64,000 nt of DNA from contig NZ_CP049015.1 of NCBI RefSeq assembly GCF_011064845.1, positions 1,364,001-1,428,000 of the forward strand, in the 5' to 3' direction. The notes below the pieces were generated by a model. That model saw only the letters and a list, made by a program, of their open reading frames with translations, searched no databases and was not told where the DNA came from. The translations under genes and the position numbers were made by a program. Each line of letters starts with the position of its first letter. Position 1 is the first letter of the stretch. Below are positions 43,969-59,826 of the stretch, piece by piece. Origin of the DNA: Citrobacter freundii ATCC 8090 = MTCC 1658 = NBRC 12681. GTDB taxonomy: Bacteria; Pseudomonadota; Gammaproteobacteria; Enterobacterales; Enterobacteriaceae.

Positions 43969-44205
43969 ATGAACATGTTTAAAACTACGTTACTAATGAC
44001 TGCATTACTGACTGCTCCGGTGACATTTTCCGTGTTAGCGCAAACCGAGGTTGCCCACGTGAGCGTATCGACTGTGTCTGGCACTCCTTCCGTGGTGGAA
44101 GATGCCATTGCGAAACTGGCACAGGAAAAGAAAGCGACTTCCTGGAAAATTACCTCAATGCGCATTGATAGCAGCACTCACGCAACGGCAATTTTGTACA
44201 AGTGA
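43969..44205 (+). CDS. rclB: Small periplasmic protein RclB
   Basis: 78 residues from the ATG at 43969 (MNMFKTTLLMTALLTAP), preceded by GGGA; the length equals the E. coli protein. Signal peptide ending near VLAQT, then a DUF1471-like (YhcN/BhsA) beta-alpha-beta domain with SVSTVSGTPSVVEDAIAKLA and SSTHATAILYK. DUF1471-type proteins are associated with stress in enterobacteria. Its stop is 11 nt before rclC. Confidence 0.9.
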   Translation: MNMFKTTLLMTALLTAPVTFSVLAQTEVAHVSVSTVSGTPSVVEDAIAKLAQEKKATSWKITSMRIDSSTHATAILYK

Positions 44206-44216
44206 GGAGAGCCGGA

Positions 44217-44777
44217 ATGGAAAAATATCTTCGTATATTGGGCAAAGGTGATAGGGTTGGATTAACCTTGATTCGCCTGAGTATCGCGATTGTTTTTATC
44301 TGGATTGGGTTATTAAAATTTGTACCTTACGAAGCCGACAGCATTACGCCGTTTGTCGCCAATAGTCCGGTAATGTCATTTTTTTATGAGCATCCAGAAG
44401 AATACAAACAACATTTAACCCACGAAGGTGAATTCAAACCGCAGGCTCGTGAATGGCAGACGGCGAATAACACGTATACGTTCTCAAATGGCCTGGGCGT
44501 AGTCGAAGTTCTTATCGCTTTGCTGGTGCTGGCTAATCCTGTTAGCCGTTGGCTGGGATTAATTGGCGGCGTTCTGGCATTTGCCACACCAATTGTAACT
44601 TTATCATTTTTAATAACCACACCAGAAGCATGGGTGATGCCGCTGGGTGATTTACACCACGGATTTCCGTACTTGTCAGGTGCTGGACGGTTGGTGTTAA
44701 AAGATACGTTAATGTTGGCGGGAGCGGTGATGATCATCGCGGATTCTTCCCGATCAATTATTAAGCAAAAGTATTGA
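44217..44777 (+). CDS. rclC: Inner membrane protein RclC
   Basis: 186-residue DUF417/DoxX-like membrane protein with about four transmembrane segments: VGLTLIRLSIAIVFIWIGLL, VVEVLIALLVLANPVS, LAFATPIVTLSFLI and LKDTLMLAGAVMIIA. The conserved family segment KFVPYEADSITPFVANSP follows the first helix. The ATG at 44217 follows GAGGAG. Contributes to HOCl resistance in E. coli, mechanism unknown. Last gene of rclABC, ended by a strong terminator. Confidence 0.94.
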   Translation: MEKYLRILGKGDRVGLTLIRLSIAIVFIWIGLLKFVPYEADSITPFVANSPVMSFFYEHPEEYKQHLTHEGEFKPQAREWQTANNTYTFSNGLGVVEVLIALLVLANPVSRWLGLIGGVLAFATPIVTLSFLITTPEAWVMPLGDLHHGFPYLSGAGRLVLKDTLMLAGAVMIIADSSRSIIKQKY

Positions 44778-44865: not shown

Positions 44866-45355
44866 CTGCCCTAAGGGAAATTTATGTTATACATGAAATA
44901 CAATGATTCGCTTTGCCACAATAACCAGTCGGACTTATATTACTGATTAATAATATAGTTACGTAAGCATCTTCTTTCTTCTTTCGATAGCGCACCAGTT
45001 CGCATATTGCGTAGTTCCTCCATCAAAATCCATTCATTTTTCTCTGTTTTTTTCTGTGCAATTCTTGCTATTTGTTATCTCAAAATGACACTTTAAAAAA
45101 AATTGTTATGCACTTTTGTTATAATTAATCAACACGTTCGCATGGTTTTAGGCATGACTTCAGCTAGAATTAACTTTGATTAAATGTTTTTACGTATCAA
45201 TAAATGGCTAAAGATAGTTAAAAACTTAATTTTTAACCAACTGTTCGACATGGAATCCACTATGGTAATTAAGCACCAGGGGTGGATGCTGATCTCGCGT
45301 TTTGTGAGTAACCAAACGCGAGACATATCTTAAATATGGAAATAAGGGTTTTAGA
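44866..45355. other. Upstream region of the PilZ gene
   Basis: 490 bp, AT-rich, no gene. A TATAAT sequence at 45120-45125 is a possible -10. The last 65 bp include a perfect 10-bp hairpin (45293-45323) that would lie in the 5' leader of the PilZ-LuxR-EAL transcript. Confidence 0.5.
45293..45323 (+). promoter_or_regulatory. Leader hairpin before the PilZ gene
   Basis: TCTCGCGTTT (45293-45302) and AAACGCGAGA (45314-45323), perfect 10-bp arms with an 11-nt loop, ending 32 nt before the start codon and without a T-run. It could be an operator or an RNA leader element controlling the c-di-GMP module. Confidence 0.55.
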
Positions 45356-46051
45356 ATGAGCTTTGGATTAGCAAAGGAAGATAAGTTTGAAATCATAGCT
45401 ACCCTTCGTGAAGAGCTGCACAAGAAAACGAAACTGGAAGTGTTATGTGAAAACAGTAGCGTTATCACGCAGTTAGAGAAGGTTGATTTCGAGCGGTTTG
45501 TTATCTCCTGGCACGAAGACATTGCTCCTGAAAAGGTCCAATACTTTATCCTGCACAGCGAAAGCGGGATTGTGAAATTTAGTGCCAGATTCGAGCAAAC
45601 CCCATCAGCAGGTGCAGAAGTAGGATTATCCTACCTCATACCGGATTTGATTTTCTTTGCCCAGCAGAGACAAAATCAGCGTTTTTCCTTCATGAAGGGG
45701 TATGACTTTTTCTGTTTTGGTCGTTACAAAAATGGAGAAAACTACTCTTTCAAGATTAAAAATATCTCGCAGGGTGGTTGTGCGTTAATCGTTAAAGATG
45801 TAAACGCCCGTTTTCTTTATAAAGATGCGGTGATTAAAAATGCATCTCTGGATTTCGATACATTTGGCAGTTTACAACTGGACTTAAAAGTGATCGATGT
45901 CGTCCTGATCAATGAGTTTGATGAGGATAACCAGTTGTATTCCTGTCATCAGATCTCGTGTGAGTTTGATTTTAAAAATCGTCGTGAAGAAACTGAAGTC
46001 GAGAAAATTATTATTAAATTTTTAATGAGTAACAAGATTAGAAGCTTATAA
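45356..46051 (+). CDS. YcgR-like PilZ-domain c-di-GMP receptor
   Basis: 231-residue cytoplasmic protein. The C-terminal PilZ domain (about residues 100-225) has the c-di-GMP-binding RxxxR motif as RQNQR in FAQQRQNQRFSF near residue 105 and the (D/N)xSxxG motif as NISQGG near residue 138. The N-terminal half (about 1-95) resembles the PilZ-N/YcgR-type flagellar brake domain arrangement. Start ATG at 45356 follows AAGGG. It leads a + strand series with a LuxR-type gene 6-15 nt downstream and an EAL gene. No flagellar genes are nearby, so the effector target is probably something else, perhaps the autotransporter or its regulators. Confidence 0.85.
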   Translation: MSFGLAKEDKFEIIATLREELHKKTKLEVLCENSSVITQLEKVDFERFVISWHEDIAPEKVQYFILHSESGIVKFSARFEQTPSAGAEVGLSYLIPDLIFFAQQRQNQRFSFMKGYDFFCFGRYKNGENYSFKIKNISQGGCALIVKDVNARFLYKDAVIKNASLDFDTFGSLQLDLKVIDVVLINEFDEDNQLYSCHQISCEFDFKNRREETEVEKIIIKFLMSNKIRSL

Positions 46052-46066
46052 GGAACGGTGAACAGG

Positions 46067-46654
46067 ATGTTGATGTGTGGCAGTGATAATTTTGTGGGCA
46101 ATGGTATGTTTGCCTACCTCACCAGCAAACATGTACCGATACAAACATTCCAGTTTGAGGATATGTTGCATCAGTCATCATTATGCCAGCATCAAACCAT
46201 GGTTTTTAATATCATCGATAATGAACATGCGTGTTCGGACATTGTTCAGTTTTTGAATAAAAACCGATTCAAATTTTATAATAACGTCGTGGTGATTGTT
46301 GCTGATAGTTTGGTGGCGAAATTATGCGTAGAGTTATTATATGTCGAAAAAATAATAGTTTTGACTGAAAAATCTTCATTGCGTGATTTTGGTCAATTGG
46401 CGACATTATCAGTCGGGAAATGGAACCCCCGACTGTATCGTTCGCAGAAAAGATTAACCGAAAGAGAGCAGCAGATCCTGAACTTACTGGTAAGTGGTTA
46501 TACAGCCAAAGAAATTTCTGAGTTAGTTAGCCTGAACTATAAAACGATTCAGGCACATAAGATGAGAGTCGTCGCCAAGCTTGGCCTGACCAATACCTCT
46601 GATTTAAATAAGTTAATTGTCAGATTTACCCATCGTATGTCTTTTTTACCCTAA
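46067..46654 (+). CDS. LuxR-type transcriptional regulator (left)
   Basis: About 195 residues with a C-terminal LuxR/NarL helix-turn-helix (LTEREQQILNLLVSGYTAKE, then NYKTIQAHKMRVVAKLGL). The N-terminal 125 residues look like a degenerate receiver (MCGSDNFVGNGMFAYLTSK) without a recognisable phosphoacceptor triad, as in RcsA, BglJ or FimW-type auxiliary regulators. The start is ambiguous: GTG at 46058, ATG at 46067 or ATG at 46073 all have partial ribosome-binding sites. Immediately follows the PilZ gene and is probably cotranscribed with it. Target unknown; the facing autotransporter is the natural candidate. Confidence 0.8.
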   Translation: MLMCGSDNFVGNGMFAYLTSKHVPIQTFQFEDMLHQSSLCQHQTMVFNIIDNEHACSDIVQFLNKNRFKFYNNVVVIVADSLVAKLCVELLYVEKIIVLTEKSSLRDFGQLATLSVGKWNPRLYRSQKRLTEREQQILNLLVSGYTAKEISELVSLNYKTIQAHKMRVVAKLGLTNTSDLNKLIVRFTHRMSFLP

Positions 46655-46754
46655 CCTGACCATTCTTTTCTGATGTAATACACCTAATAGTAGATACAAT
46701 TCGGGAGTGATTTTGACTGGTTTTTAATGTTATGATTTGTAGAGGGAGAGGGGA

Positions 46755-47522
46755 ATGTTTAATTCCAGTGAGGTGCTAACCGCGCTTGAAAAGGCTTTGA
46801 ATACCAGTCAACTTTATATGGTTTATCAGCCTATTTTCAATTTACATGCCCAGCGTATAAGCGGATTTGAAGCATTAATGCGTTGGAATAGTCCTCAGAT
46901 GGGTATGATCTCTCCCGATGTTTTTATTACGTTACTGGAAGATAGCGGCAATATTATTTCAATTGAAGATATGGTTACTCACTCTCCGTGGGATGTTGCA
47001 ACTTCCTGGCCTGACCCCATTGTATTATCCGTCAATATTTCCGCGCTTGAATTCTGCGATCCTCTGTTACCCCAACGCGTCAGACAAAATCTTACCACCT
47101 CCGGATTGCCGGTCCATCGATGCCAAATAGAGGTCACCGAAACGTCACCGCTGTACGACAGTCAGATTGCGGCTAAAAATATGACGGAATTAAAGGCGAT
47201 AGGGGTCAAGCTTGCGCTTGATGATTTTGGAACCGGTCATGCTAATCTTAATTACCTGTTGAAATACCCTTTTGATACCTTAAAAATTGATAAAGAATTT
47301 GTCACTGGCATTGAACCCGACACCCGATCGACAAAGATTGTTGAGGGTATTATTTCACTGGCGCATAATTTTGGTATCGAAGTTCTTGCCGAAGGGGTGG
47401 AAACCCAGTCCCAGCTGGACCGGTTGATGCAGATTGGTTGTGACAAAATTCAAGGCTTTTTCATTTCGCCCCCGGTGCAGGCACAAGAGATCCCTTCACT
47501 CTTAGCGCAATATAATCGTTAA
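46755..47522 (+). CDS. Stand-alone EAL-domain c-di-GMP phosphodiesterase
   Basis: 255 residues forming a single EAL domain with no sensor or membrane segment. The catalytic series appears complete: FEALMRW (EAL), LSVNIS (Asn), IEVTET (Glu), LALDDFGTGHANL (Asp-Asp), LKIDKEF (Lys), VLAEGVET (Glu) and KIQGFFIS (Gln). It should therefore hydrolyse c-di-GMP to pGpG. The ATG at 46755 follows GAGGGG. It lies 100 nt after the LuxR-type gene on the same strand and convergent with the autotransporter. E. coli PdeL fuses a LuxR domain to an EAL domain; here they are separate genes. Confidence 0.9.
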   Translation: MFNSSEVLTALEKALNTSQLYMVYQPIFNLHAQRISGFEALMRWNSPQMGMISPDVFITLLEDSGNIISIEDMVTHSPWDVATSWPDPIVLSVNISALEFCDPLLPQRVRQNLTTSGLPVHRCQIEVTETSPLYDSQIAAKNMTELKAIGVKLALDDFGTGHANLNYLLKYPFDTLKIDKEFVTGIEPDTRSTKIVEGIISLAHNFGIEVLAEGVETQSQLDRLMQIGCDKIQGFFISPPVQAQEIPSLLAQYNR

Positions 47523-47573
47523 TCCTTCCGTATTTACGTTTCCCAATCCCTTGATTGTTCCACGTTGCTGGTA

Positions 47574-47606
47574 AGTCTGTAGGCCTGATACGCGTCGCGC
47601 ATCAGC
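47574..47606. repeat. REP-like fragment
   Basis: GTCTGTAGGCCTGATACGCG followed by TCGCGCATCAGCC resembles the GTAGGCCTGATAAGCGTAGC REP unit seen near cysS, with changes. It lies between the convergent EAL and autotransporter genes. Confidence 0.5.
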
Positions 47607-47627
47607 CACCCCTGTAATACTATAAGC

Positions 47628-47657
47628 AAAAAAAAGCCCCCTGCTAAACAGGAGGCT
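47628..47657 (-). terminator. Intrinsic terminator of the autotransporter gene
   Basis: On the - strand GCCTCCTG, a short loop and CAGGGGGC are followed by a run of eight T residues (A-run 47628-47635 on the + strand). It begins 18 nt past the autotransporter stop. Confidence 0.9.
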
Positions 47658-47674
47658 GGCGAGTTTATGTCAGC

Positions 47675-50600
47675 TTAGAACGATTTCTTAAAGCCGATAG
47701 AGGCATTGACCGGCGCTTCGATCTGCGACTTACTGCCGCCGTTGCTGAATTGCGTACCCAGCTCACCGTAGACCTGCAGGTTTCTGTCGATAGACCATGA
47801 CAGGCCGGCTGCAACTTCAGTGCTGGAGTACTGCTGTGAAGATTCCAGCGTAGTGGTGGCTACCGCATTGCTAAAGTGCGTTTTGTCTTTTGAACCCAGA
47901 CCCTGCCAGACGTTAACCCTGCCGTACGGCTGGAATTTGCCATGGTTGGTGTCATAGTCAGCGACCAGACGCACGCCCAGACGCGCGGTAAAGGAGTCTG
48001 CGGTATCCATTTTCACTTTCGTTGGGGTCACACCATCCAGTGTGCTGTTATCAAAGTCGCTGTACTGGTAGATCAACTGAGCCTGAGGCTCCAGACTCCA
48101 TGCGCTGGCGCCTAAACGGAACGATTTACCCACCTCTGTCGACGCCGTCAGCGTGTTGCCTCTGACGGTATACGAGCCATTGTTACCGGTCGCCGTCAGG
48201 CGGGATTTATGGTTACCGTACTGCAGGACGTTATCAACATACATACCGTCACCCGAGAACCAGGTCGCATAGCCACCGACGTAAAATGCGTTGTCGTCGA
48301 TGTTACCGCCTTTGCCATCGCTGCCTGTCTTCGTGCCTTTCACGTTGCTGTCGATATCAAGGATGCTGGTATACATCCCGGCTTTCCAGCTTTCGTTAGC
48401 ATACATATCAACGCCGACCTGGATACCCATGGTATGGGAGCTGGTTTGCGTACCGGCAGCATCATCCAGTTTGGTTTTACCGGAGTAGCCAATCATTCTT
48501 GCCCAGGCGCGATTGTCTTCATCAATGCCCGGTTTAACCTCGTCCCCCATACGTTGGTGCATGTTACCTAACAGGCTAATATCACCCTGACGTACTACGC
48601 TGGCGAGGCCAGAATACAGCATGGTTTCTGGACGGTATTCACTTCTCAGATACCAGTTTTCACCCTGGCCCTGAGCATTACCCGCATGTAGTTGGTACTC
48701 AAACGCACCTGCAGCCATACGATCGGCGGCAAGATGGAAGGCATCCCGTGAGGTTTGCGCGGTTGTGGTTGCGCCATTGAGCGCAGTCACCACTTCGATA
48801 CCATCCCCAATGGTCGGCGCGCCAAGACCAGAACCATCGACATCCAGCAGTGTGCTACCGCTGGCTTTACCGCCATCGATAATCAGACGGTCGGCAATGC
48901 CTGCTCCGCTACCATTCTGGATAGCTGCCATGTTGATAGTCCCTTTTTCGCCGGTGTAATCCCCTTTGACGGTTAAGGTTGTGCCAGTCTGCTGACCGAT
49001 GAGCGAGACATCGCCACCGTTGCTCAGGCCCGCTACCGTCTGGTTATAGCCCTGCGTGTTCAACGTGGTGTCTGCGACTACATAGTGGTGTGATGCGCTA
49101 CTCAGGGTGTTGGTATTACCCGCTTGCAGCACGCCGTTGGCGATCAACGTAGCGCCGCTGTAGCTGTTTTCACCTTGCAGCTCGGTAATGCCGCTACCGG
49201 TCTGATGCAGCTGGCCTTTACCACTGATATTGCCGGTCAGCGCCAGGGTATCGCCACGATTGACGTTGAGTACGCCGTTATCAATGATATCCCCCTGAAT
49301 GCTGCCAATATCACCGCCGTTACCCAGTTGTAAAACACCTTGTTCGATGGTGGTGCCACCGGTGTAGGTGTTATCCAGCGTCAGGGTGAGGGAGCCTTTA
49401 CCGGTTTTGGTCAGTTGACCGTTACCTTCGACTTCCGTCAGCAGAGAAACGTCATGCCCGTTGGTGTCGAATGTCCCGCCGCCGGATTCCAGCGTCACCT
49501 GACGGGCAGTATCAAACGCTTCGCCATACTTCAGCGTACCGCCATTAAAGGTAATTCCCGTATCTGCCGCACCCAGGTTGGTATCACCCGCCACCTGCAG
49601 CGTCCCTGAGGTGATGGTGGTGCCACCGCTGTAAGTATTGTCGCCGGTGAGAATCAGCGTACCGAGATCGCCTTTATTCAGGCCGCCGGTACCACGGATA
49701 ACGCTGTCGATAGTGGCGGTGTAACTGGCGCCGTCTACTGTGCCATCGCCGACACGAATCAGGGTGTTTGCCGTGTTGGTGGTAATGGCTTCTCCGCCCA
49801 CACGATAACCATCGGTGGCGAACTGCGCGCCGCTGATGATGACATCGCCTTTGCTGTTATCGACGGTTACGTTGCCCGCTTCACCCTGGAAGACGGCGAA
49901 TGCGGCATCGGTAAACGGTGCGTTCAACGCGCCTTCTGGCGTCGATTCATCGGTGGTCCAGTTGTCGTTACCCTGGCTGGATTGCCAGATACCGTCGCCG
50001 CCGTTAATGACGCCGTTATTTTTCAGCTCGCCATTCTCACCGCCGGTGCCGTCCCAGAAGCGCAGCGTCAGTCCGGCGTGGTTGACCAGGTTGACCTGAT
50101 TTTTCACCGATGTCTGCACGTACAGGCTGTCAGCTGCTTCCGGTGCGTTAGCAATATCCATCACATTGTTGGTCAATGTGCCGGTGTAGTTGATGACGCG
50201 GTAAACGCCCACATCAAAGCTTCCGCCTGGTGAGGTTTCAATGTTGAGCTTACCGTCGAGCGTCAGATCGCCATTTACGTCAATCAAGTCGTTGAAGGCA
50301 CCGCCCGGGGTATAAGCCTGACCAAACTGATAATCCAGTTGGGCGTTATCACTGAGCGTCAGAGAACCGGTAGTCAGTTTACCCACACTGTTGATAGCTG
50401 CACCTGCGGTAATATGCGCGTCGTCCAGCACATCAACAGCGCCGCCGATAATACCGTTACCGCCGAGCGTTGCCCCGGATTTCACCGTCACCTGGCCAGT
50501 AGCCGCAGACTGATTACCGTTGACCAGCAGCACGCCTTCATTGACGTCCGTGGTGCCGGTGTAAGTGTTATCGCCGGTCAGCGTCAACGTACCGTCACCG

Positions 50601-53600
50601 ATTTTTACCAGGCTGCCGTCGTTGCCGCTGATAATACCGCTGATGGTGTCATCAAGATGCAGATTACCCAGCGACAGTTCTTTATTGCCCAGTTCGACAT
50701 TACCCGCGCCGGACAACGAGCCGATAGACGTTGCGCTGTCGACTGCGCTGATATCGACCTTACCGCCCACCAGGTTTTTAACGACGGTGTTCTCTGCCAT
50801 CGCATAGTCAGCAAAGGTCATCAGTCCGCTGTTATTCACGGTGGCATTGCCCCCGCTGGCATTTTCTTCCAGCGCCAGGGTACTGTCTTTTGACACGTTA
50901 ACCGTCGCGTTGCCCGCACTGGCGTTGTTGGTTAACACCGCTTTCGCCGTGCCCGTCAGGTTCAGCATTGCGCTTGCGGCGGTGACGTTATCCGCCAGCG
51001 TTAACAGGCTGTCGGCGATGTTCATAGTCAGGGATTTCAGGCTGGTATCTGTCCCGCTGACATTGAGCGTCGCACCCTTATTGACGTTCACGGTGCTGCT
51101 TTCATTACTGCCAAAGGCTCCGGTTTTGCTGACGTTGACCGTCACATTGTTGGCGTTTCCGGTACCGGCAATTTCAGTGTCGCCTTTGTAGCTGTTTGCA
51201 CGGTCGAGCGACAAGGTGCTGCCCGCATCACTAGAGCTGCTGGTGACTTTCAGTTTACCCTCGCCGGTAATCTCACCGGTTGGCGTGAAGTGGTGCGAAT
51301 TAAGGTCAAACACCGCAGCATTCTCATTCGCTCCCAGCTCAATGGTGCGATTGCTGGTCAGGTCCGCGCCCAGTTGCAGCGTTGAACCGTTATTGATGGC
51401 CAGGTCAGTTCCGCTCTGGCCGAGATTGCTGTCGGAGGAGATCTGCAACGTGCCGCCATCAATGCGCGTGCCGCCGCGATACTCGTTGTCACCGCTGAGG
51501 ATCAGACGGCCAAGGTCGGTTTTCACCAGCGTCAGCTTGTCAGCAGTACTGGCCTCGCGGATAACGGACTCAATGGTCGCGGTATAATTTTGCCCCGCGC
51601 CACCGGCGCCAACGCGCACCAGCAGTTCGCCAGTCCCCGGCGTCTGGCCTGCGTGGGTCGCGTTTTCCGTGGTGGCATACGCGTTAAGCGCATCGCCTTT
51701 AACGACATAGCCATCGGCATCAAACTGTGCTCCGGAGAAGTTAATTTCTCCCGCGGCGTTATCCACGGTAACGGTACCGCCTTTGGTGGTGAAGACGGCG
51801 AAGGACTTCTGTGCCCAAGGGGCGTTACCCTCACCGGTTGCGGTGGTCCAGTTGTTATCACCCTGACTGCCGATTGCCATCCATTTGCCATCGCCACCGT
51901 CAATTTTGCTGTCGCCTTCAATGCCGGACGCGCCGTGGCTCTGATTAACGGTTGCGCCGTCCCAGAACTGCAGGGTAACGCCGTTGGCATTCACCAGGTT
52001 GACCTGTTTGTCGATGGAGGTCTGAACAAAAATATTGCTCTTATCCTGGCTATTCGGTATCGCGCCTAATTCCAGCGTCTGGTTATCCAGCGTGCCACCG
52101 TAGTTATAGATACGGTACACGCCCGGTCCGAAGTTACCACCCTGTGAAGTGGTGACGTCCAGAGTCCCGTCCAGTTGCAGATCGCCTGCGACGTTAATCA
52201 GATCGTTTAGCGCGCCGCCTGGCGTATAGGCTTGACCCAGTTCGAAAGCGGAGGTCGTTTTGCTGCCAAGCTGCAGATTACCGTTAATGGATAACGTACC
52301 CGCACCGCCGTCACCGGCGCTGAGGGTAGAGGCATCGTTCATCAGCACGTCGCCGCCGATCACCCCGTTACCCCCCAGCGTCGCCGTACCGCTTACTTTG
52401 GTCACACCCGTCGCGGCACTCTGATTCCCTTTCACCAGTAGCGTACCGCTGGTGACGGTCGTGTCGCCGGTATAGGTGTTATTGCCCGTCAGGCGAGTAA
52501 TACCGTTACCAATCTGCTGTAACGCACCGATCCCGGAGATTACGCCGCCAAGCAGCACATCATTGGCCCGATTAATCGCCAGTACGCCATTGTCGATGAT
52601 GTCAGACACGGCGTTGACTCCGCCTGTATTTCCGCCGTCACCCAACTGCAGCGTACCGGTTTGATCAATAGTGGTAGAGCCGGTATAGGTGTTGTTGGCG
52701 GTAAAGACAGTGGTGCCGCCCGCCGCGCGTTCAAACTTCCCATCACCGCTGATGACGCCGTTATAGATCTGCGCAGCCGCCGTATCGCCCTGCGTGTCAA
52801 AGATGACCCGGCTGCCTGCACCCTGAGTCGTCACATTGTAGTCAGCGATGGTCGCGGCAGTGCTGGTGGACTCGCCGTGATCGCCGGTACGCAGCGTTGC
52901 GCCATTGGTAACCGCAATGGTTTTACTTGCCAGTTGCAGACGATCGACGATGCGCATATCTGCACTTGAACCGCTAATGGTCAGTGAGTCCCAACCCGTG
53001 CCGATGTTGGTACCGGTGGTCAGGTTATCGCTGCTCAGGCTGCCAATTTTCGCACTGTTACCGTGTGTATTGGTGAAGGTGAGGGCGTTGCCACTGCCGG
53101 CTTCGGTAGTGATATGGCGCGTTTTATCCAGCGTCACATTGCCGATGTTGGCTTTATTGTTGCCGCCGGTTCCGGCGAAATTCACCTCGCCCGCAAAGGT
53201 TCCGCTTTGCCAGTTAAAGGTGTCCTTGCCTTCTCCGGTGTTGATGACGCCACTGGTGATACCCTGGCTGATATCAATGGTGTCATTGCCCTTGCCAGAT
53301 TGAATCGCCACTGCTGTATCGTTGATAGCCTGAAGGGTACCGGTATTGGTGATTTTTTTATTGCTGTCACCGCTGGCATCAATAACGGGTGCGGTGGTGC
53401 TGGCAGAGATAATTTTTCCGCTATTGGCTATTGCGCTAACATTTTTAGCGATGATTGCAGAACCACCTGCGCTGTCGTAGACGTTGATATTGGCATTGGT
53501 GGTGACCTTACCGTCCGTATTGGCGCGAATACCGCTGCCTTCGCTGTTATGCACCTCAACGGTATAGCCTTTGCCGATGGTCAGATTGCCTGTCACTGCG

Positions 53601-56600
53601 TCACCATTGCGCTGCTCAAAGGCGAAGCCGGTACCTTTACCGTTAACGTTCAGAATGTTATTCAGGCCATCTTTCATGTTTAACGCGACGCTGGTACGGA
53701 TCCCCGGACCGTCGTTGGCATTGATAGTGACATCGTTGAGTGTGATATCGGTATTGTTGGCGTCGTTTTGAATGCCAGCACCAGTACCTTCGGCGCTAAT
53801 AATCACCCCTTTGGCAGCCAGCTTACCGGCTCCTGTATCAAGACGAATACCATCGGCCGAACCATTAGTCGTGATGGCATCACCGGCATTACCGGTAATA
53901 CTCAGGCTGGCACCGTTGGTCAGCAGAACCCCTGCGGTTCCATCATCAACTTGAATCTGACCCAATTTTTTAATCTGTGCGTTCGAACCCGAAGCTTGTA
54001 CGCCAATGCCGTTACTCACATGTAAGGCAGCGGTCGCGTTATTGGTTAAACTCCCGCCTTGTTGCACGTTAACACCAATGCTGTCGGTGCTGGCAAGATC
54101 GATAATTGCCTGGGTATCGAGGATCAGGCTGCCCTGGTTCCTTGCCACATAGGCAATAACCTTGTTGCCGCTGGCTTCTGAAGTGATTTTTGCGTTTGAA
54201 GTGAGGATGGTCGGAGTGGCGCTACCTTCTGCGTTGCCATTCAACTGATGAGCCTGACCGTCCACTACCCCGGCAATGGTTCTTTCACCGGTTAAATTGA
54301 TGGTGGTTTTATCGCTGATGTTACCTGTGGCACCGCCTTCAATCAGCAGCGCGGCGGAGTCGGTGCCCTGCACGGTGAACGTGGCTTCGCCGGTATCCAC
54401 ACTACTGCCTGTGCCCGTCGCTAATACGCCAACGGACTGTTCGCCGCTTAAGGTCAGGTCAAGGTTTGAGCTGGGCTGACCGTCAGGAGTGGTGGTGTTA
54501 CCGGCCAGCATTGCACCATTGGCAATACGGAAAATGGTGGTGCGATCTTGCCCGTTGTCATTCATTACCGCCTGACCAATATTCGCAGTTGCGCCTTTAC
54601 CATACAGGTAATAGCCAATCTGATCGGTGCTGTTGAATGCCGGGCTACTCAGACTGTCGACGTTAGCGACGGCGTTATCACGCACGTGTACGCCGATGTT
54701 CCCGGCTTTGTTTAGCGTGATGTTGGAATAGACGTTGACCACTGCCTTTCCATCTTTGCCACCTTCAGCCCAGACGGCATAGTTACGGTTACCGACACTA
54801 CCTTCACCATCAACTACGATAGAGCCTGAAGCGCTGGTCGTGGCTTCGGCATTTTTGTTAGTTGCGCTGACGTGGATGCCGACGTTGTTGGTGCCGTTGA
54901 CGTTAATCTTGCCGTCGTTGCGAATTTCCTGATTATTTTCCGCGCCGCTGTCACGCACGGTGATACCGTAGTTCCTGCTACTCCCCGCGCTGGAATCGCC
55001 ATTGATCACGATATTACCGGTATTGATGACGTTGCCGGTCGCGTTACCAATCAGCATACCCGCGGCGTTACGTACGCCGGTTCCCAGCGTGATAAGGCCG
55101 TTGTTAATCACCTCTTTGGCGCTCTTGGTCATGATCCCGGCGCTCAGACTTGAACCGCCTGACATGGTGACATCTTTAGACGGATCACTTGCGTTACGGC
55201 CAAGATAAATAGAGGCACCTGCGCTGTTGGTAAAGGTGGCGTTGTCGGCGACTTCTACGCCATAGGCGATGCCGCTGCCGTAGGATGCACCGTTTTTGCG
55301 CCCGTCCACGACGTTGATATCGCCGTTGTTGACCCCTTGAGCATTGTCAGACAGTTGCATACCAATGGCCAGCGTCAGCTCGCCAGCGGGTTTGTCCTTA
55401 CTCCAGGGATCGGCGGCAGAAGCGGTGCCGAAGTTATCGGTGGTGATCGCCTGGTTGATGGTACCTTCGTTGGTGATTTGACTGGCGCCTTGCCCCTGCA
55501 TACCAAATGCGCCATAGCTGTTGACGTTTTGGTTGCCGTCTTTATCAATAAACAGCCCGGAGTTGATGATCCCGTTGTTGGTTGCCGTCGCGTCTTTTGC
55601 CAGCATGCCAATCGCCAGGCTTTGCCCGGTAGACGTGCGTAATGCGTTCAGCTCACCAAGGTTAGTGATAACCCCACCATTAATGGCTTTCATCACGCCA
55701 TTAATACTGCCGTCAACGGCAATAATCGCGTCTTTGTTCAAGGTGCCGGAGGTGCCTGCGCCGTTGGCATAGATGGCATGTAACTCACCACGGCCAGCGG
55801 TCGCGTTGTTGGTATGTGACAAACCGTCGGTCCAGACGTCGTAATCCCAGCTGAGTATGTCAGCTGGCTTACCGGAGGTGAGCAGATTTTCAATCAGCTC
55901 GGCGTACTTTGTTTGTGCTGCGGTGACGGTTGTGACTTCCTCCGCATCTATCCACAGCTGGATTTGGCTGACTTTTTCACCATCAGGGTTTTGTGCCGCG
56001 TCGTCGCTTTTGCCCAACAGCCAGTCATTGAATTCGGCCAGTTCTTGTGTGTTGGTAATGGTAAATGTGCGCTCCCCGGTTTCGACGACCTTGCCATCCT
56101 CGTCATAGCCATAGGTCATCAGCGAAAATTCATCGCCAAACACGGAGGTTTGCGCTGAACCGGTGAACGTTTTTTCAGGGATCACCGGGGCTGCGTTAAA
56201 TTTTATATAGTTATCTGACTGCCAGTTCACCTGGCTTGCAGTACCTTGCGCTTCCAGCAGCGAGGAATCTTTTGCCAGCAATTCGATGGTATTGGCTTTG
56301 TCACGCACATTGAGGGTGTCGTCGCCAATATTCAGATTCGCAATGGAGCCATTTGTCGCCAGGGCGATACCAAATTGCTTATAGATTTCTGATTTCTGAG
56401 CATCAAAGGTGTTTAATACCGCATCGCCGACTTGCGCTTCGGTAAGAAAACCATTTAACTCATTGGTATCAAAGACTTTGATGGTTGTTTTTTCGCCGGG
56501 AAACGCCGGATCGTTGATATCAAATTCTGTGCTCTGCGAAGGCGTCGACGACTGGTTGTAAGTCAAGTATTCCGCCAGTTCTTCAGAGTTGGTAATGGTT

Positions 56601-57013
56601 TTTACGCTCTGGTCAGGGCTGGTTGCCAGCAGGGTGATTTTGCCGCTTTCCAGCAGTTCCCGGATAGTGGTTGATTCAACAACGCCGCTTTGACCCGGGC
56701 TAAATGTTGGGATTGCACCACTGATATTCAGTGCCTGACCGGTGGTGTTATCTTCATATAAGAAGCCGTAGTCGTGGATACCCTCATAAACCCCAGCGGA
56801 AATACCTGTCTTGAAGTCTTCATGAATATCGTGTTCACCCGTTGCGGTAATCTGGGCTGCAGAAGCCAGCAATGAAGCACCGCTTAATGCGCCAGCTGCC
56901 AGTACGGCGACAGTTTTACGCGAGCTGCTTTTTTTCTTTCCTTTCGTTAATTCAGAAACGACCACCCAGATACCGAGCGCCGCGTTCCAAATAATGCTGT
57001 AAACTTTGTTCAT
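47675..57013 (-). CDS. Giant autotransporter adhesin (type Va, ESPR, PATR repeats)
   Basis: 3112 residues. Residues 1-25 form an extended signal peptide (ESPR: MNKVYSIIWNAALGIWVV), followed by a basic stretch and hydrophobic core to about residue 53. Residues about 60-430 are an N-terminal domain I do not recognise. From about 430 to 1300 is Gly/Asn-rich repeat sequence expected to form a long beta-helix, followed by about eight PATR-like repeats (NTYTGxTTI type). Two related modules, about 1506-1915 and 2145-2529, duplicate one another. An RGD occurs at 2586-2588. A pertactin-like autochaperone lies at about 2690-2810 and the outer membrane barrel at about 2833-3112, ending GFKKSF. Start follows AAGGG at 7 nt. 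It is probably an adhesin or biofilm protein; receptor unknown. Confidence 0.93.
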   Translation of the reverse strand: MNKVYSIIWNAALGIWVVVSELTKGKKKSSSRKTVAVLAAGALSGASLLASAAQITATGEHDIHEDFKTGISAGVYEGIHDYGFLYEDNTTGQALNISGAIPTFSPGQSGVVESTTIRELLESGKITLLATSPDQSVKTITNSEELAEYLTYNQSSTPSQSTEFDINDPAFPGEKTTIKVFDTNELNGFLTEAQVGDAVLNTFDAQKSEIYKQFGIALATNGSIANLNIGDDTLNVRDKANTIELLAKDSSLLEAQGTASQVNWQSDNYIKFNAAPVIPEKTFTGSAQTSVFGDEFSLMTYGYDEDGKVVETGERTFTITNTQELAEFNDWLLGKSDDAAQNPDGEKVSQIQLWIDAEEVTTVTAAQTKYAELIENLLTSGKPADILSWDYDVWTDGLSHTNNATAGRGELHAIYANGAGTSGTLNKDAIIAVDGSINGVMKAINGGVITNLGELNALRTSTGQSLAIGMLAKDATATNNGIINSGLFIDKDGNQNVNSYGAFGMQGQGASQITNEGTINQAITTDNFGTASAADPWSKDKPAGELTLAIGMQLSDNAQGVNNGDINVVDGRKNGASYGSGIAYGVEVADNATFTNSAGASIYLGRNASDPSKDVTMSGGSSLSAGIMTKSAKEVINNGLITLGTGVRNAAGMLIGNATGNVINTGNIVINGDSSAGSSRNYGITVRDSGAENNQEIRNDGKINVNGTNNVGIHVSATNKNAEATTSASGSIVVDGEGSVGNRNYAVWAEGGKDGKAVVNVYSNITLNKAGNIGVHVRDNAVANVDSLSSPAFNSTDQIGYYLYGKGATANIGQAVMNDNGQDRTTIFRIANGAMLAGNTTTPDGQPSSNLDLTLSGEQSVGVLATGTGSSVDTGEATFTVQGTDSAALLIEGGATGNISDKTTINLTGERTIAGVVDGQAHQLNGNAEGSATPTILTSNAKITSEASGNKVIAYVARNQGSLILDTQAIIDLASTDSIGVNVQQGGSLTNNATAALHVSNGIGVQASGSNAQIKKLGQIQVDDGTAGVLLTNGASLSITGNAGDAITTNGSADGIRLDTGAGKLAAKGVIISAEGTGAGIQNDANNTDITLNDVTINANDGPGIRTSVALNMKDGLNNILNVNGKGTGFAFEQRNGDAVTGNLTIGKGYTVEVHNSEGSGIRANTDGKVTTNANINVYDSAGGSAIIAKNVSAIANSGKIISASTTAPVIDASGDSNKKITNTGTLQAINDTAVAIQSGKGNDTIDISQGITSGVINTGEGKDTFNWQSGTFAGEVNFAGTGGNNKANIGNVTLDKTRHITTEAGSGNALTFTNTHGNSAKIGSLSSDNLTTGTNIGTGWDSLTISGSSADMRIVDRLQLASKTIAVTNGATLRTGDHGESTSTAATIADYNVTTQGAGSRVIFDTQGDTAAAQIYNGVISGDGKFERAAGGTTVFTANNTYTGSTTIDQTGTLQLGDGGNTGGVNAVSDIIDNGVLAINRANDVLLGGVISGIGALQQIGNGITRLTGNNTYTGDTTVTSGTLLVKGNQSAATGVTKVSGTATLGGNGVIGGDVLMNDASTLSAGDGGAGTLSINGNLQLGSKTTSAFELGQAYTPGGALNDLINVAGDLQLDGTLDVTTSQGGNFGPGVYRIYNYGGTLDNQTLELGAIPNSQDKSNIFVQTSIDKQVNLVNANGVTLQFWDGATVNQSHGASGIEGDSKIDGGDGKWMAIGSQGDNNWTTATGEGNAPWAQKSFAVFTTKGGTVTVDNAAGEINFSGAQFDADGYVVKGDALNAYATTENATHAGQTPGTGELLVRVGAGGAGQNYTATIESVIREASTADKLTLVKTDLGRLILSGDNEYRGGTRIDGGTLQISSDSNLGQSGTDLAINNGSTLQLGADLTSNRTIELGANENAAVFDLNSHHFTPTGEITGEGKLKVTSSSSDAGSTLSLDRANSYKGDTEIAGTGNANNVTVNVSKTGAFGSNESSTVNVNKGATLNVSGTDTSLKSLTMNIADSLLTLADNVTAASAMLNLTGTAKAVLTNNASAGNATVNVSKDSTLALEENASGGNATVNNSGLMTFADYAMAENTVVKNLVGGKVDISAVDSATSIGSLSGAGNVELGNKELSLGNLHLDDTISGIISGNDGSLVKIGDGTLTLTGDNTYTGTTDVNEGVLLVNGNQSAATGQVTVKSGATLGGNGIIGGAVDVLDDAHITAGAAINSVGKLTTGSLTLSDNAQLDYQFGQAYTPGGAFNDLIDVNGDLTLDGKLNIETSPGGSFDVGVYRVINYTGTLTNNVMDIANAPEAADSLYVQTSVKNQVNLVNHAGLTLRFWDGTGGENGELKNNGVINGGDGIWQSSQGNDNWTTDESTPEGALNAPFTDAAFAVFQGEAGNVTVDNSKGDVIISGAQFATDGYRVGGEAITTNTANTLIRVGDGTVDGASYTATIDSVIRGTGGLNKGDLGTLILTGDNTYSGGTTITSGTLQVAGDTNLGAADTGITFNGGTLKYGEAFDTARQVTLESGGGTFDTNGHDVSLLTEVEGNGQLTKTGKGSLTLTLDNTYTGGTTIEQGVLQLGNGGDIGSIQGDIIDNGVLNVNRGDTLALTGNISGKGQLHQTGSGITELQGENSYSGATLIANGVLQAGNTNTLSSASHHYVVADTTLNTQGYNQTVAGLSNGGDVSLIGQQTGTTLTVKGDYTGEKGTINMAAIQNGSGAGIADRLIIDGGKASGSTLLDVDGSGLGAPTIGDGIEVVTALNGATTTAQTSRDAFHLAADRMAAGAFEYQLHAGNAQGQGENWYLRSEYRPETMLYSGLASVVRQGDISLLGNMHQRMGDEVKPGIDEDNRAWARMIGYSGKTKLDDAAGTQTSSHTMGIQVGVDMYANESWKAGMYTSILDIDSNVKGTKTGSDGKGGNIDDNAFYVGGYATWFSGDGMYVDNVLQYGNHKSRLTATGNNGSYTVRGNTLTASTEVGKSFRLGASAWSLEPQAQLIYQYSDFDNSTLDGVTPTKVKMDTADSFTARLGVRLVADYDTNHGKFQPYGRVNVWQGLGSKDKTHFSNAVATTTLESSQQYSSTEVAAGLSWSIDRNLQVYGELGTQFSNGGSKSQIEAPVNASIGFKKSF

Positions 57014-57116
57014 ATATAACCCTTGTCTACATTCCTGTTATGTATGTGTTAATACGTTGAGTTGTTGGCTATGGTTGGCACGCGGATGTGCTACCCGGTA
57101 ATGGATTTTGGAAATA

Positions 57117-57167
57117 GGGTTTCCTTCCGTGCGATGCGGAATTAAAAAAGCGATCCGGAAGAAAACC
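57117..57167 (-). other. Hairpin between right LuxR-type gene and autotransporter
   Basis: GGGTTTCCTTCCG (57117-57129) pairs with CGGAAGAAAACC (57156-57167) across a 26-nt loop, with one mismatch. It lies in the 196-bp gap between the two - strand genes and may attenuate read-through from the regulator into the adhesin or bind a regulator. Confidence 0.5.
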
Positions 57168-57209
57168 TCTTTAAATAATAACCGTGATAATTGTCCTTAA
57201 ATAAGTCAG

Positions 57210-57788
57210 TTACGGCTGGCTATAGTGGGAAATGGTGTACTTGAGCCGGGTGTTATTTTTGCCGAGTTTTCTGGCAATATTGCTTTTGTACGCCCCGATG
57301 GTTTTTTCACTTTTTTGTGATGCCCCGGCGATTTGTGTCAGTGACCATCCTCGGGCAAGCATCATCATTACGTTAAATTCGTTAGCTGTAATTTTTGTGT
57401 GTAGTTCTTTGATACTTTGTTGTTTTTTGTTTTGCGTGATACGTGTGACGGTCTGTAATAGCTGATCAAGGCTGGTGTCTTGATCGAGAAATTGCATGTT
57501 CTTCCCGCAAACGGTTTGAAAAATGGCAAAGGTAGCTTCATCTGCCAAAACAATAATTTTGGTGACAGGTCGCAAAGCCATGTTGCGGATAATCCTGGCA
57601 TATTTTAAAAAATCTGATTTGTCAGGATTAATGATGATGCAATCCGTTTCATAAGGGAGCATTTTGACAGCAGAAAGTGTCTGGGAGGAGTAGTACGTGA
57701 TATCAATAAATAATGATGAGCCACGTAGGATTTCTCGCATGCCTAGCCAAGGGTAAATTGAGTCACCCAAAAAAATAGCTTTTGACAT
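57210..57788 (-). CDS. LuxR-type transcriptional regulator (right)
   Basis: 192 residues from the ATG at 57788 (MSKAIFLGDSIYPWLGMREI), preceded by AAGGAG. The C-terminal helix-turn-helix reads ITANEFNVMMMLARGWSLTQ and SEKTIGAYKSNIARKLGKNN. The N-terminal half is a receiver-like fold with IIINPDKSDF where a phosphoacceptor would lie, so phosphorylation is doubtful. It resembles the RcsA/BglJ/FimW class of accessory regulators, some of which pair with RcsB; that is an inference. It lies directly upstream of the autotransporter in the same orientation and is its likely regulator. Confidence 0.82.
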   Translation of the reverse strand: MSKAIFLGDSIYPWLGMREILRGSSLFIDITYYSSQTLSAVKMLPYETDCIIINPDKSDFLKYARIIRNMALRPVTKIIVLADEATFAIFQTVCGKNMQFLDQDTSLDQLLQTVTRITQNKKQQSIKELHTKITANEFNVMMMLARGWSLTQIAGASQKSEKTIGAYKSNIARKLGKNNTRLKYTISHYSQP

Positions 57789-58404
57789 AACGATCTCCTT
57801 GAAATTTTGGTGCAAGCAGTCGCCTCTTTTTTTAGGTTAAAAAAGAGTTTCTTGCGACGCGTGAAATGTTAATTAAATCTCGTATAACGTTCTGTGCTGT
57901 GAACGTATCCTTATTAATTCCAGATCAAACAGAAATTCTCTGTATTAATTAGAATCATTAACTATCCTTAAAGTGGATATTACACTTTGTTAAAATTTAA
58001 GATAAATCGTTTATTTCAGCTCTGCGTAAATGATTGATAGATTTCGCTTATGGATCGGGATAATAATAAGAAGGAGGTTTGTATAAAGGCAGTGTATTCC
58101 TAGGGTTAAAGAAAGGTATTTATATGTAATGGCTTTAATTTCAATAAGATACTCATTTTTCTTCATGGGATTAATTGAGGATAGGAGAATTCTTAATCCT
58201 GGCCAGGACGCAGGAAGTGGAAGGTTAGGAGAAGAGGGAAATATTGCCGAATTTACACCTATCGGCTAAAAATAGGATTATTCCAGATGATATTACTGCG
58301 TTAAAGCAAGTGATTAGTGTTTTATCCTTTTTTGGTCTTTTTGTGCCTAATGTTGAAATCTGGCTTGCAGGTGTCATTTTGTCTTAATGCGCTAGCGATA
58401 GCGC
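57789..58404. other. Intergenic region right of the autotransporter module
   Basis: 616 bp, AT-rich, no gene supported. An AAGGAGG sequence at 58072-58078 is not followed by an open frame. A palindrome GCGCTA-GCGA-TAGCGC (58389-58404) abuts the J-domain gene stop and may serve as its terminator. This gap marks the edge of the accessory block. Confidence 0.5.
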
Positions 58405-59580
58405 TTAGCCCGCCAACAGCTCCTGCTCAACCTGTTGCACCTGTTGTTCCAGCGTATTGCGGATTTCCGTAAGCGCCCGTTGTTGATCGGAGAAGTAGGC
58501 CTCTTTATCTGTCACGGAGGTGGCAAGCCGCCAGGCGTTCTCCGCTTCCAGTTCGGTAATCTCTTTCAGCAGCGCGTTAATGTGTTCTCTGAGCTGTTGT
58601 ATTTTGCTGCGTAAATGCTGCAAATCGTTCAATCGGTCACTCGCCATCATCGGTTCGAGGCCGCTTTGCAATTGAGTTAGTAGCGCCCGGACGGCGGCAA
58701 GATCGGCATTTTGGCGTGCCTGGTTAAGCTGCACCATCATCTGATGCGCTTTCTCTTTCAGATCATCGGCTACCACGTCCGGGTGGCAAAGACGGCTGGC
58801 CTGACGCCACAGGCGTTTTAGCTCATTACGTTCATCAGAGGAAAGCCGCTGGTCACGACTAAAACGATGCTGCGCATCCTGCTGCTGCTCCTGATATTCA
58901 TCATATTCATGGCTGGCCTCTTCCTGTGCCTGACGGGTTGCGCTGTCGTCCTGGCGAGAAAAGTCGTTTTCCAACTCACGAATCTCCGCCAGAAGGGCGG
59001 TAATCAGTTCCGTTTGTTGCTGAATACGTTGGCGTGTTTCCACCGATTCGCGCGAATCTGAATTCTGGTTCATCCAGTGCTGCTTGAGCCTTGCCAGTTG
59101 ATCAACAGCCTGGGAAATATAGTGCTGGCAGGATTGATAGTCTTTTTCCCGGCGTTTTCGCTCCGCTTCCTGTTTGCGCTGGGCGCTGGCGGCGAGCTGT
59201 TTACGCAGTTCGAGAATGCGGCTCATCAGCGGTCCAAGACGAAGGTGATACAGATCGTTGAAATCATCGAGGATTTGAATGCGCGTGTTGCGCTTATCGA
59301 TCAGGTCACGCAGCTGTGTTTCGAGCGCTTTGAGTTCCAGCTTACTGGCGGCAATGGCTGGATCCTGCCACGTAGAGACTGCCCGTTGAGATTGCAGCCA
59401 GGCCGAGATTTCACGCAGGGCATCACTAAAGCGTCGTTCTTCGATCGCCTGCACAATGGTGCCTGGCACGACGGATAACGGCTCATTTTTAAGATGCGCC
59501 ACCTGCTGGAAAATAATTTCCTCATCTTCCAGTTCAATAGCGCTTTTGACGATTTCCAGTCGTTTGATGATCTTATTCAT
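58405..59580 (-). CDS. J-domain coiled-coil protein
   Basis: 391 residues, soluble, highly charged, largely helical. A J-domain-like segment lies at about 248-300, with the HPD motif at 266-268 in RLCHPDVVADDLKEK, suggesting it can stimulate an Hsp70 ATPase (DnaK or HscA family). It is flanked by coiled coils at about 120-245 (QRKQEAERKRREKDYQ, QEEASHEYDEYQEQQ) and 310-391. No zinc finger or glycine-rich DnaJ region, so it is a class C type J protein. Function unknown; monocistronic and divergent from pheP. Also found by recollection in other Citrobacter-type genomes, which I cannot verify. Confidence 0.75.
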   Translation of the reverse strand: MNKIIKRLEIVKSAIELEDEEIIFQQVAHLKNEPLSVVPGTIVQAIEERRFSDALREISAWLQSQRAVSTWQDPAIAASKLELKALETQLRDLIDKRNTRIQILDDFNDLYHLRLGPLMSRILELRKQLAASAQRKQEAERKRREKDYQSCQHYISQAVDQLARLKQHWMNQNSDSRESVETRQRIQQQTELITALLAEIRELENDFSRQDDSATRQAQEEASHEYDEYQEQQQDAQHRFSRDQRLSSDERNELKRLWRQASRLCHPDVVADDLKEKAHQMMVQLNQARQNADLAAVRALLTQLQSGLEPMMASDRLNDLQHLRSKIQQLREHINALLKEITELEAENAWRLATSVTDKEAYFSDQQRALTEIRNTLEQQVQQVEQELLAG

Positions 59581-59826
59581 GACAGTCGTTGCCTGGCCTG
59601 ACTCAAAAACGAGTGGCTGAAGTACAACAGGTTCACCCGTTTGAAAATGTTAGAAAAACAGTAAAGCGCATTCTGTGGCCTGTCATGCCTTTTCGTCCAG
59701 AATAATTCACCGTAATTATGAACAAACGCAATGCTACAGGCACGGCAGGTCCTTATTGCGCCTTGCGACAACCAGGTTGAAATGTTAAAAGAAGCCCCTT
59801 CAATAAAAACGACACAGGGGAAGGGC

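Follow-up and report, generated by a model that had tools for sequence, protein, structure and literature searches.

A putative MrkHI-type c-di-GMP control module facing a giant autotransporter in Citrobacter freundii

The window analysed here is a stretch of 64,000 nucleotides (nt) from Citrobacter freundii ATCC 8090 (contig NZ_CP049015.1, positions 1,364,001 to 1,428,000 of the forward strand). It harbors five intact genes that probably form a cyclic di-GMP (c-di-GMP) control module of the MrkHI type, supplemented by an EAL phosphodiesterase and facing a giant autotransporter in place of a fimbrial operon. Three genes lie on the + strand. The mrkH-like gene (45356..46051) codes for a 231-residue putative c-di-GMP-dependent regulator composed of a YcgR-N-like and a PilZ domain. 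The mrkI-like gene (46058..46654) starts 6 nt past mrkH and codes for a 198-residue LuxR/GerE regulator. The third gene (46755..47522), 100 nt past mrkI, occupies the slot of mrkJ and codes for a stand-alone EAL phosphodiesterase of 255 residues. This trio is convergent with the - strand gene of the autotransporter (47675..57013), an adhesin candidate of 3112 residues with an ESPR, PATR repeats, an autochaperone, and a β-barrel. Upstream of the latter, on the same strand, lies a gene for a second LuxR/GerE regulator, termed luxR2 (57210..57788), of 192 residues from its ATG or 201 from an upstream TTG. A first, sequence-only reading had described all of these frames, from the PilZ protein to the intact EAL and ESPR/PATR genes, and they were recovered in the same places; its proposal of a dedicated c-di-GMP switch for the adhesin is still the best account, with a coupling that would operate as follows.

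A rise in c-di-GMP, produced elsewhere in the cell, would lead to its binding by the PilZ domain of MrkH. The complex would bind TATCAAT-type operators and activate its own mrkHI operon, establishing a positive feedback, as well as the presumably co-transcribed luxR2-autotransporter unit, from a box located ~245 nt upstream of the ATG of luxR2. The autotransporter would be displayed as an adhesin, the EAL protein would degrade c-di-GMP and limit the response, and MrkI and LuxR2 would act as accessory LuxR-type regulators tuning both promoters. Of these steps, autoregulation of mrkHI is better supported than the control of the autotransporter by MrkH. The module had initially been called "self-contained", a term that has to be dropped: none of the five genes codes for a diguanylate cyclase, and a motif scan of the 64-kb window reveals no GGDEF protein, a single GGEAF match falling in an unrelated frame.

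The view that no named system has this layout also had to be revised, since the left-hand trio reproduces that of mrkHIJ facing mrkABCDF in Klebsiella (PMC3161979) and in the Klebsiella-type mrk locus used for comparison (L077, genome G185). According to PMC5055493, MrkH was the first c-di-GMP-related regulator of type 3 fimbrial expression to be characterised. In Klebsiella, mrkH-mrkI-mrkJ lies directly downstream of mrkABCDF and is convergent with that operon, and reverse transcription PCR bridged mrkH to mrkI, not mrkI to mrkJ (PMC3161979). Together, mrkHIJ and mrkABCDF have been reported for type 3 fimbriae control in Klebsiella pneumoniae and Citrobacter koseri (PMC3161979, PMC3828302). 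In L077, the usher gene and two further genes are followed by convergent EAL, LuxR, and MrkH genes. The window displays the same PilZ-LuxR-EAL order, converging on an adhesin unit; its MrkH and MrkI are homologous to their counterparts over the full length; its mrkH and mrkI genes almost abut, with a gap preceding the EAL gene; and it shares the composite operator at mrkH and the core of the mrkA box at the adhesin unit. In contrast, the adhesin of the window is one autotransporter with its own LuxR gene, without mrkABCDF. MrkH and MrkI are 40% and 30% identical to those of L077, the latter over nearly the full length (E 5e-31). The EAL protein belongs to another lineage (28% over 148 residues to the L077 MrkJ, the MrkJ proteins of four mrk loci being mutually 47-81% alike), its gene has no preceding box, while in Klebsiella, MrkH binds a box at mrkJ (PMC5344390), and the adhesin unit lacks the second operator element. 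Because a MrkJ orthologue and an operator at the mrkJ promoter are missing, as is, judged from mrkC, a type 3 operon in the genomes searched, the locus is not assigned to the mrkHIJ-mrkABCDF system, and its left half is best named a MrkHI-type module whose EAL gene is non-orthologous. The comparison suggests that a MrkHI-type switch may have been re-used for a different adhesin in Citrobacter. The available text of the MrkH literature treats this regulator for type 3 fimbriae only, and no description of MrkH beside or controlling an autotransporter was found in the accessible portions of the open-licence PMC literature, including PMC12635112, PMC11445613, PMC5717340, PMC3882659, and PMC12501221.

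The assignment of the first gene rests on several comparisons. The protein matches the Pfam family MrkH_YcgR_like (PF22363) with 72.3 bits for a cut-off of 27, and the PilZ model with 20.5 bits, just below its cut-off of 22.5. Structure chains of Klebsiella-type MrkH are matched with an E-value of 1e-53, versus 8e-5 for YcgR (5y6f). The matched chain 5ejl is named as a Klebsiella entry; three 5k-chains carry the YcgR name, yet the first 39 residues shown are those of the L077 MrkH except one. The YcgR flagellar brake shares the YcgR-N and PilZ architecture and was considered as the identity of this gene. It was rejected, the YcgR equivalog model yielding 44 bits versus a cut-off of 400 and MrkH being closer; unlike the brake, moreover, the protein resides in an adhesin locus and retains most of the basic residues by which MrkH contacts DNA.

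The c-di-GMP-binding motifs of the window MrkH are RQNQR at 105 (R105/R109) and NISQGG at 136. R107 and R111 of the Klebsiella protein bind c-di-GMP (PMC5055493). Residues were mapped by alignment, in which the row from genome G126 is ended early by a stop, and both arginines are present in all rows of autotransporter-linked MrkH that have the residue (n=20 and 19). Six basic residues have been reported as critical for DNA binding by Klebsiella MrkH (PMC5055493); positions R125, K127, K154, K163, K207, and R209 correspond to R, K, R, K, D, and K in the window, and five of the six stay basic in autotransporter-linked MrkH. In a tree with several long branches, from which the truncated G126 row was left out, the autotransporter-linked MrkH and those of the pheP locus form one clade (100/100, 22 rows), apart from the fimbria-linked MrkH; the autotransporter-linked rows alone are a clade in only 40% of the bootstrap trees. 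As for the EAL protein, its domain scores 225 bits and contains the motifs EAL, SVN, EVTE, DDFGTG, LKIDK, EGVE, and IQGF, a set that we take to be the mark of an active enzyme.

The MrkH box of the Klebsiella mrkA gene is GATCTATCAATG (PMC5023117), with its centre at -78.5 relative to the mrkA start (PMC3828302). Two MrkH-box-like sites are found in the window. The first, TACGTATCAATA (45191..45202, + strand), lies upstream of mrkH, and its TATCAAT is followed at N12 by a second element, ATAGTT (45214..45219, + strand), with the spacing of the L077 mrkA and mrkH promoters. The second, AATCTATCAATC (58032..58043, - strand), upstream of the luxR2-autotransporter unit at ~245 nt before the luxR2 ATG, matches the Klebsiella box at 10 of 12 positions. 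Upstream regions were aligned for the window and 16 loci of the genus. TATCAAT precedes mrkH in all 17 loci, as well as in the three clusters of a second genus (L071-L073), and is the only 7-mer common to all 17 mrkH and all 17 luxR2 upstream regions. At luxR2, the mrkA-type 11-base core AATCTATCAAT is present in 20/20 clusters (17/17 aligned loci and 3/3 of the second genus), followed by a C, or by a G in L034 and L039. The window contains a single exact copy of ATCTATCAAT, a 10-mer from the Klebsiella mrkA box. This copy precedes luxR2, a position at which the 10-mer is present in 17/17 aligned loci and 3/3 second-genus clusters; in the luxR2 upstream region of the window (595 bases), an exact match has a shuffle probability of 0.005.

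The same reading recovers both known promoters of L077, i.e. mrkA (CATCTATCAATG) and mrkH (TACATATCAATC), each with ATAGTT or ATAGTC at N12. The composite TATCAAT-N12-ATAGTY was searched in 23 whole genomes, with the reversed sequence as a control. In the whole G185 genome, it has exactly two matches, the mrkA and mrkH promoters. It is present at mrkH in the window and in 15/17 genomes of the genus (15/16 aligned loci), the exceptions being G012, which has ATAGCT, and G009, where the gene is missing. Elsewhere, the genomes of the genus contain 0-2 further matches each, and the reversed control yields 0-2 per genome, 7 in total versus 33. Genome G166, which carries two mrkH genes, has the composite at the mrkH of its pheP locus and lacks it at its true mrk locus (L082); in L075 (genome G157), no TATCAAT precedes mrkH. 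As judged from these upstream regions, the composite is a candidate mrkH operator well conserved in the genus, common to the Klebsiella-type locus, and not universal for MrkH.

A number of observations weigh against the proposed switch, the first of them bearing on its operators. ATAGTY at N12 is missing from the luxR2 promoter in 17/17 loci, and TATCAA is found in neither the mrkI-EAL gap nor the luxR2-autotransporter gap of these loci. When up to two mismatches are allowed, shuffled luxR2 upstream regions yield a 12-mer match with a probability of 0.07, and across the whole window the 12-mer is about as frequent as expected by chance (6 sites found, 5.05 expected). Five of 16 loci carry a second ATCTATCAAT ~10 kb off, within the autotransporter gene. 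In the second genus, the composite is present at mrkH in one of three genomes, the other two having ATAGCT, and no TATCAAT is found before mrkH in the distant mrk loci L082 and L083. At the protein level, the DNA-contact lysine K207 is replaced by D or E, the EAL protein is not an orthologue of MrkJ, and the role of MrkI has been reported as disputed even in Klebsiella (PMC5344390). Furthermore, mrkH genes of the pheP neighbourhood occur without the autotransporter in G157 (with mrkI and the EAL gene), G074 (with mrkI), and G166 (mrkH alone), a stop interrupts mrkH in G126, and another one interrupts the autotransporter of L032, 15/16 frames being open. Confidence in the switch was slightly reduced because the composite operator is missing at some mrkH genes. 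With a mrkA-type core and without the second element, the luxR2 unit makes its control by MrkH suggestive, not decisive.

Part of these data would also fit a mere neighbourhood without direct control, an explanation considered unlikely. MrkHI and the EAL protein would then regulate themselves and distant targets, e.g. other fimbriae, while luxR2 and the autotransporter would obey LuxR2 and other inputs, their synteny reflecting the vertical inheritance of one chromosomal island. The full composite operator at mrkH and not at luxR2, as well as the regulators retained without the autotransporter in three genomes, are in line with this explanation, and the 17 genomes of the genus are related, so that their conservation is not independent. 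It agrees less well with the persistence of AATCTATCAAT at luxR2 in every cluster while much of the surrounding AT-rich sequence varies, with a convergent layout as in mrk, and with the lack of a type 3 fimbrial usher in these genomes.

Regarding the latter, no mrkC orthologue was found in the 17 genomes of the genus and the three of the second genus, the matches listed reaching at most 41%. Among the 24 genomes searched, two possess one, G185 (100%) and G166 (90%), both with true mrk loci. That the cluster serves type 3 fimbriae encoded elsewhere in the searched genomes was rejected for those 20, which lack the mrkC orthologue and do not include the assembly of the window itself. Some C. freundii have been reported to carry mrk genes, i.e. 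14.3% of uropathogenic isolates (PMC2900259).

In the genus, MrkH is present in 16 of 17 genomes, the autotransporter passenger in the same 16, and all 16 display the five genes in the same order and orientation. Identities to the window are 86-94% for MrkH, 88-98% for MrkI, 85-98% for the EAL protein, 78-94% for the autotransporter, and 83-97% for LuxR2. In the 17th genome, G009, the contig stops 22 codons into luxR2, with the box present, which may be due to a loss or to an assembly gap. The three second-genus genomes (L071-L073) possess the full cluster, and 19/19 fetched clusters have all five genes in order, a single stop being present in each of two. Among 295 sampled genomes of the family, for which at most 10 LuxR and 2 autotransporter candidates were scored per genome, LuxR2 orthologues (at least 63%) occur in seven, each with the full cluster, autotransporter orthologues (at least 68% over the passenger piece) in eight, the eighth being a mobile copy in G200, and MrkH at 52% or more in ten. 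The PilZ protein retrieved nine named loci, all from Citrobacter. With synteny in 16 other genomes at 78-98% identity per protein, the cluster exceeds a chance association, and the rare co-occurrence that the sequence-only reading had named as a refutation is not seen, either among the MrkH-bearing genomes of the genus (16/16 complete) or among the seven LuxR2-bearing genomes of the family. Its idea of a joint gain and loss holds in part: the complete clusters of the genus agree with it, but the three genomes without the autotransporter and the mobile autotransporters without intact regulators do not.

Genome G166 holds two MrkH. That of its pheP locus (L074) is without MrkI, EAL protein, and autotransporter. 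The other belongs to a separate, true mrk locus (L082) with a distant MrkH (31%), MrkI, an EAL protein, and a mrkC 90% identical to that of L077. The coexistence of both MrkH types argues that the cluster is not simply a mrk locus after loss. It thus bears on another explanation, in which the locus would be a decaying remnant, a former mrk locus deprived of its fimbrial operon whose regulators were kept by chance near an unrelated autotransporter. MrkHI pairs without an adjacent usher do occur elsewhere (L045, L078), and the stops in the mrkH of G126 and the autotransporter of L032 might be read as signs of decay; the order of five genes in all fetched clusters and the supported clade uniting autotransporter-linked and pheP-locus MrkH, apart from the fimbria-linked ones, render such a remnant very improbable.

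Ten of the distant MrkH loci have an usher within the fetched 20 kb (L077, L079-L085, L087, L089); none was seen among the matches listed for the MrkHI pairs L045 and L078 and for the outgroup loci L086, L088, and L090. L045 and L078 come from the same genus as L077. In L080, L081, L084, and L085, MrkH-MrkI adjoin chaperone-usher operons with ushers of ~870 residues, compared with 828 for mrkC. As in the window, these pairs are next to a surface-adhesin operon; unlike in the window, this operon codes for chaperone-usher fimbriae, no EAL gene is seen nearby, and the arrangement is divergent instead of convergent. Nine loci of other genera (L112-L120) hold relatives of the autotransporter, 34-56% alike by segment, with no match to MrkH, MrkI, the EAL protein, or LuxR2 nearby, and the regulators are, as far as seen, probably specific to the Citrobacter-type cluster.

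LuxR2 is only ~20-22% alike to either MrkI, that of the window or that of L077. BglJ and RcsA are proteins that pair with RcsB. For both LuxR proteins of the cluster, BglJ is the best NCBIfam match among RcsB partners, and RcsA also appears, these matches being well under the cut-offs. An RcsAB-like sequence, TAAGAATTCTCCTA, is found at 58182-58195, ~140 bp upstream of the MrkH box and partly conserved in the 17 loci; it was recognised against a motif that we take to be the RcsAB consensus. LuxR2 might then be the direct activator of the autotransporter, with MrkH acting only via LuxR2, or an RcsB-type partnering might make envelope stress the main input. Either variant is doubtful, though compatible with the MrkHI-type switch. 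The restriction of LuxR2 orthologues in the family sample to genomes with this autotransporter (7/295), the family matches, and the RcsAB-like sequence speak in their favour; yet the matches are far under the cut-offs, and the sequence has a shuffle probability of 0.02 and 3-4 mismatches in 8/17 loci. A sigma-70 promoter near the box was also considered and found weak, with 3 sites versus 3.9 expected. One protein, P0136, a copy of LuxR2 at 99% identity, bears the label Escherichia coli, on contigs of up to 44.9 kb, which points to a transfer or a mislabelling.

The autotransporter shows in Pfam an ESPR, PATR (6 matched stretches), and AC_1, and in NCBIfam the barrel. It thereby possesses all the elements of a classical (type Va) autotransporter with ESPR/PATR: ESPR, PATR repeats, autochaperone, and C-terminal barrel. 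Among its named matches, the closest (99-100%) mostly bear the label Citrobacter freundii. A putative autotransporter that may correspond to the window gene, CF74_1207, has been reported as a difference between C. freundii isolates (PMC3310003). An alignment of fourteen sequences comprised the window, 12 of the 16 loci of the genus, and L071. Over columns 1-1000, identity to the window is 51-72% for L033, L034, L040, and L041 and 74-96% for the remaining eight genus loci; past column 2000, all twelve are at 82-100%. The distal passenger (window 52200-57013) occurs as two strongly differing tip alleles among the genus loci. In L034, MrkH is nearly identical to those of L036 and L042, and the tip is 54-70% like that of L036 and 87-92% like that of L033. 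This is consistent with an exposed tip that would be exchanged by recombination while the regulators stay constant.

The autotransporter is also found on mobile DNA. A 9986-bp piece corresponding to window positions 47067-57052 contains the autotransporter gene, a truncated EAL gene, and 39 nt of leader. At ~99%, part or all of it is found in 13 E. coli records of plasmid size, of which two were examined, both plasmids. Seven Enterobacter plasmids, of which one was examined, also carry it, five of them in full, and another copy lies on a 4.7-Mb contig of G200 (L111). These copies sit by ISKpn26/IS5-type elements: annotated IS5-family transposase genes stand at both ends in L027 and L146, L111 has two unannotated frames of the same 326 residues with the same junctions, and the EAL end adjoins IS26 in L028. 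The junction on the autotransporter side is identical in L027, L028, L111, and L146, at 39 nt before the ATG, and the box, mrkHI, and luxR2 are therefore gone from the mobile copies. Plasmid-borne mrkABCDF is likewise reported without intact mrkHIJ and MrkH box, and with an IS1-associated promoter (PMC5023117). In both cases, insertion sequences moved an adhesin off its c-di-GMP module and the MrkH box was lost; the difference is that the mobilised adhesin is here an autotransporter, lying beside ISKpn26/IS5-type elements.

The cluster is flanked by rclC (44202-44777) on one side and, on the other, by a gene of 391 codons (58405-59580) followed by pheP (59731-61221). Between the convergent genes, the alignment of the 17 loci reveals a conserved hairpin (47636..47656) next to an A run (a T run on the - strand), likely the terminator of the autotransporter gene. 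An Rfam match to sroD at 47631-47728 (- strand), overlapping the 3' end of the autotransporter gene and this terminator, was discarded (26.3 bits versus a gathering score of 50, E 0.14). The gap between luxR2 and the autotransporter (57014..57209, - strand) is a leader that is highly conserved in the alignment, including ~90 nt before the ATG and a TTCCG...CGGAA inverted repeat, and is without a MrkH box. It has no match in Rfam, and a structured leader was rejected, its fold having a z of -1.24, with 20/200 shuffles equally good.

A wider reading, which we hold tentatively, is that MrkH-MrkI would be a portable c-di-GMP switch, located beside type 3 fimbriae, other usher fimbriae, or an autotransporter, that here drives luxR2 and an autotransporter; the exposed tip of the latter would diversify by allelic exchange under an unchanging switch, and its transfer to plasmids by insertion sequences would free it from that switch. 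A conserved module of the MrkH type opposite an autotransporter would mean that this switch can be combined with different adhesins in a modular fashion. A Citrobacter group whose representative genomes lack the type 3 usher would gain a specific and testable c-di-GMP-controlled surface protein. The locus also lends itself to comparing the evolution of a PilZ transcription factor and its operator after a natural swap of output, and the plasmid copies of the autotransporter, without regulators, resemble the published history of plasmid-borne mrkABCDF.

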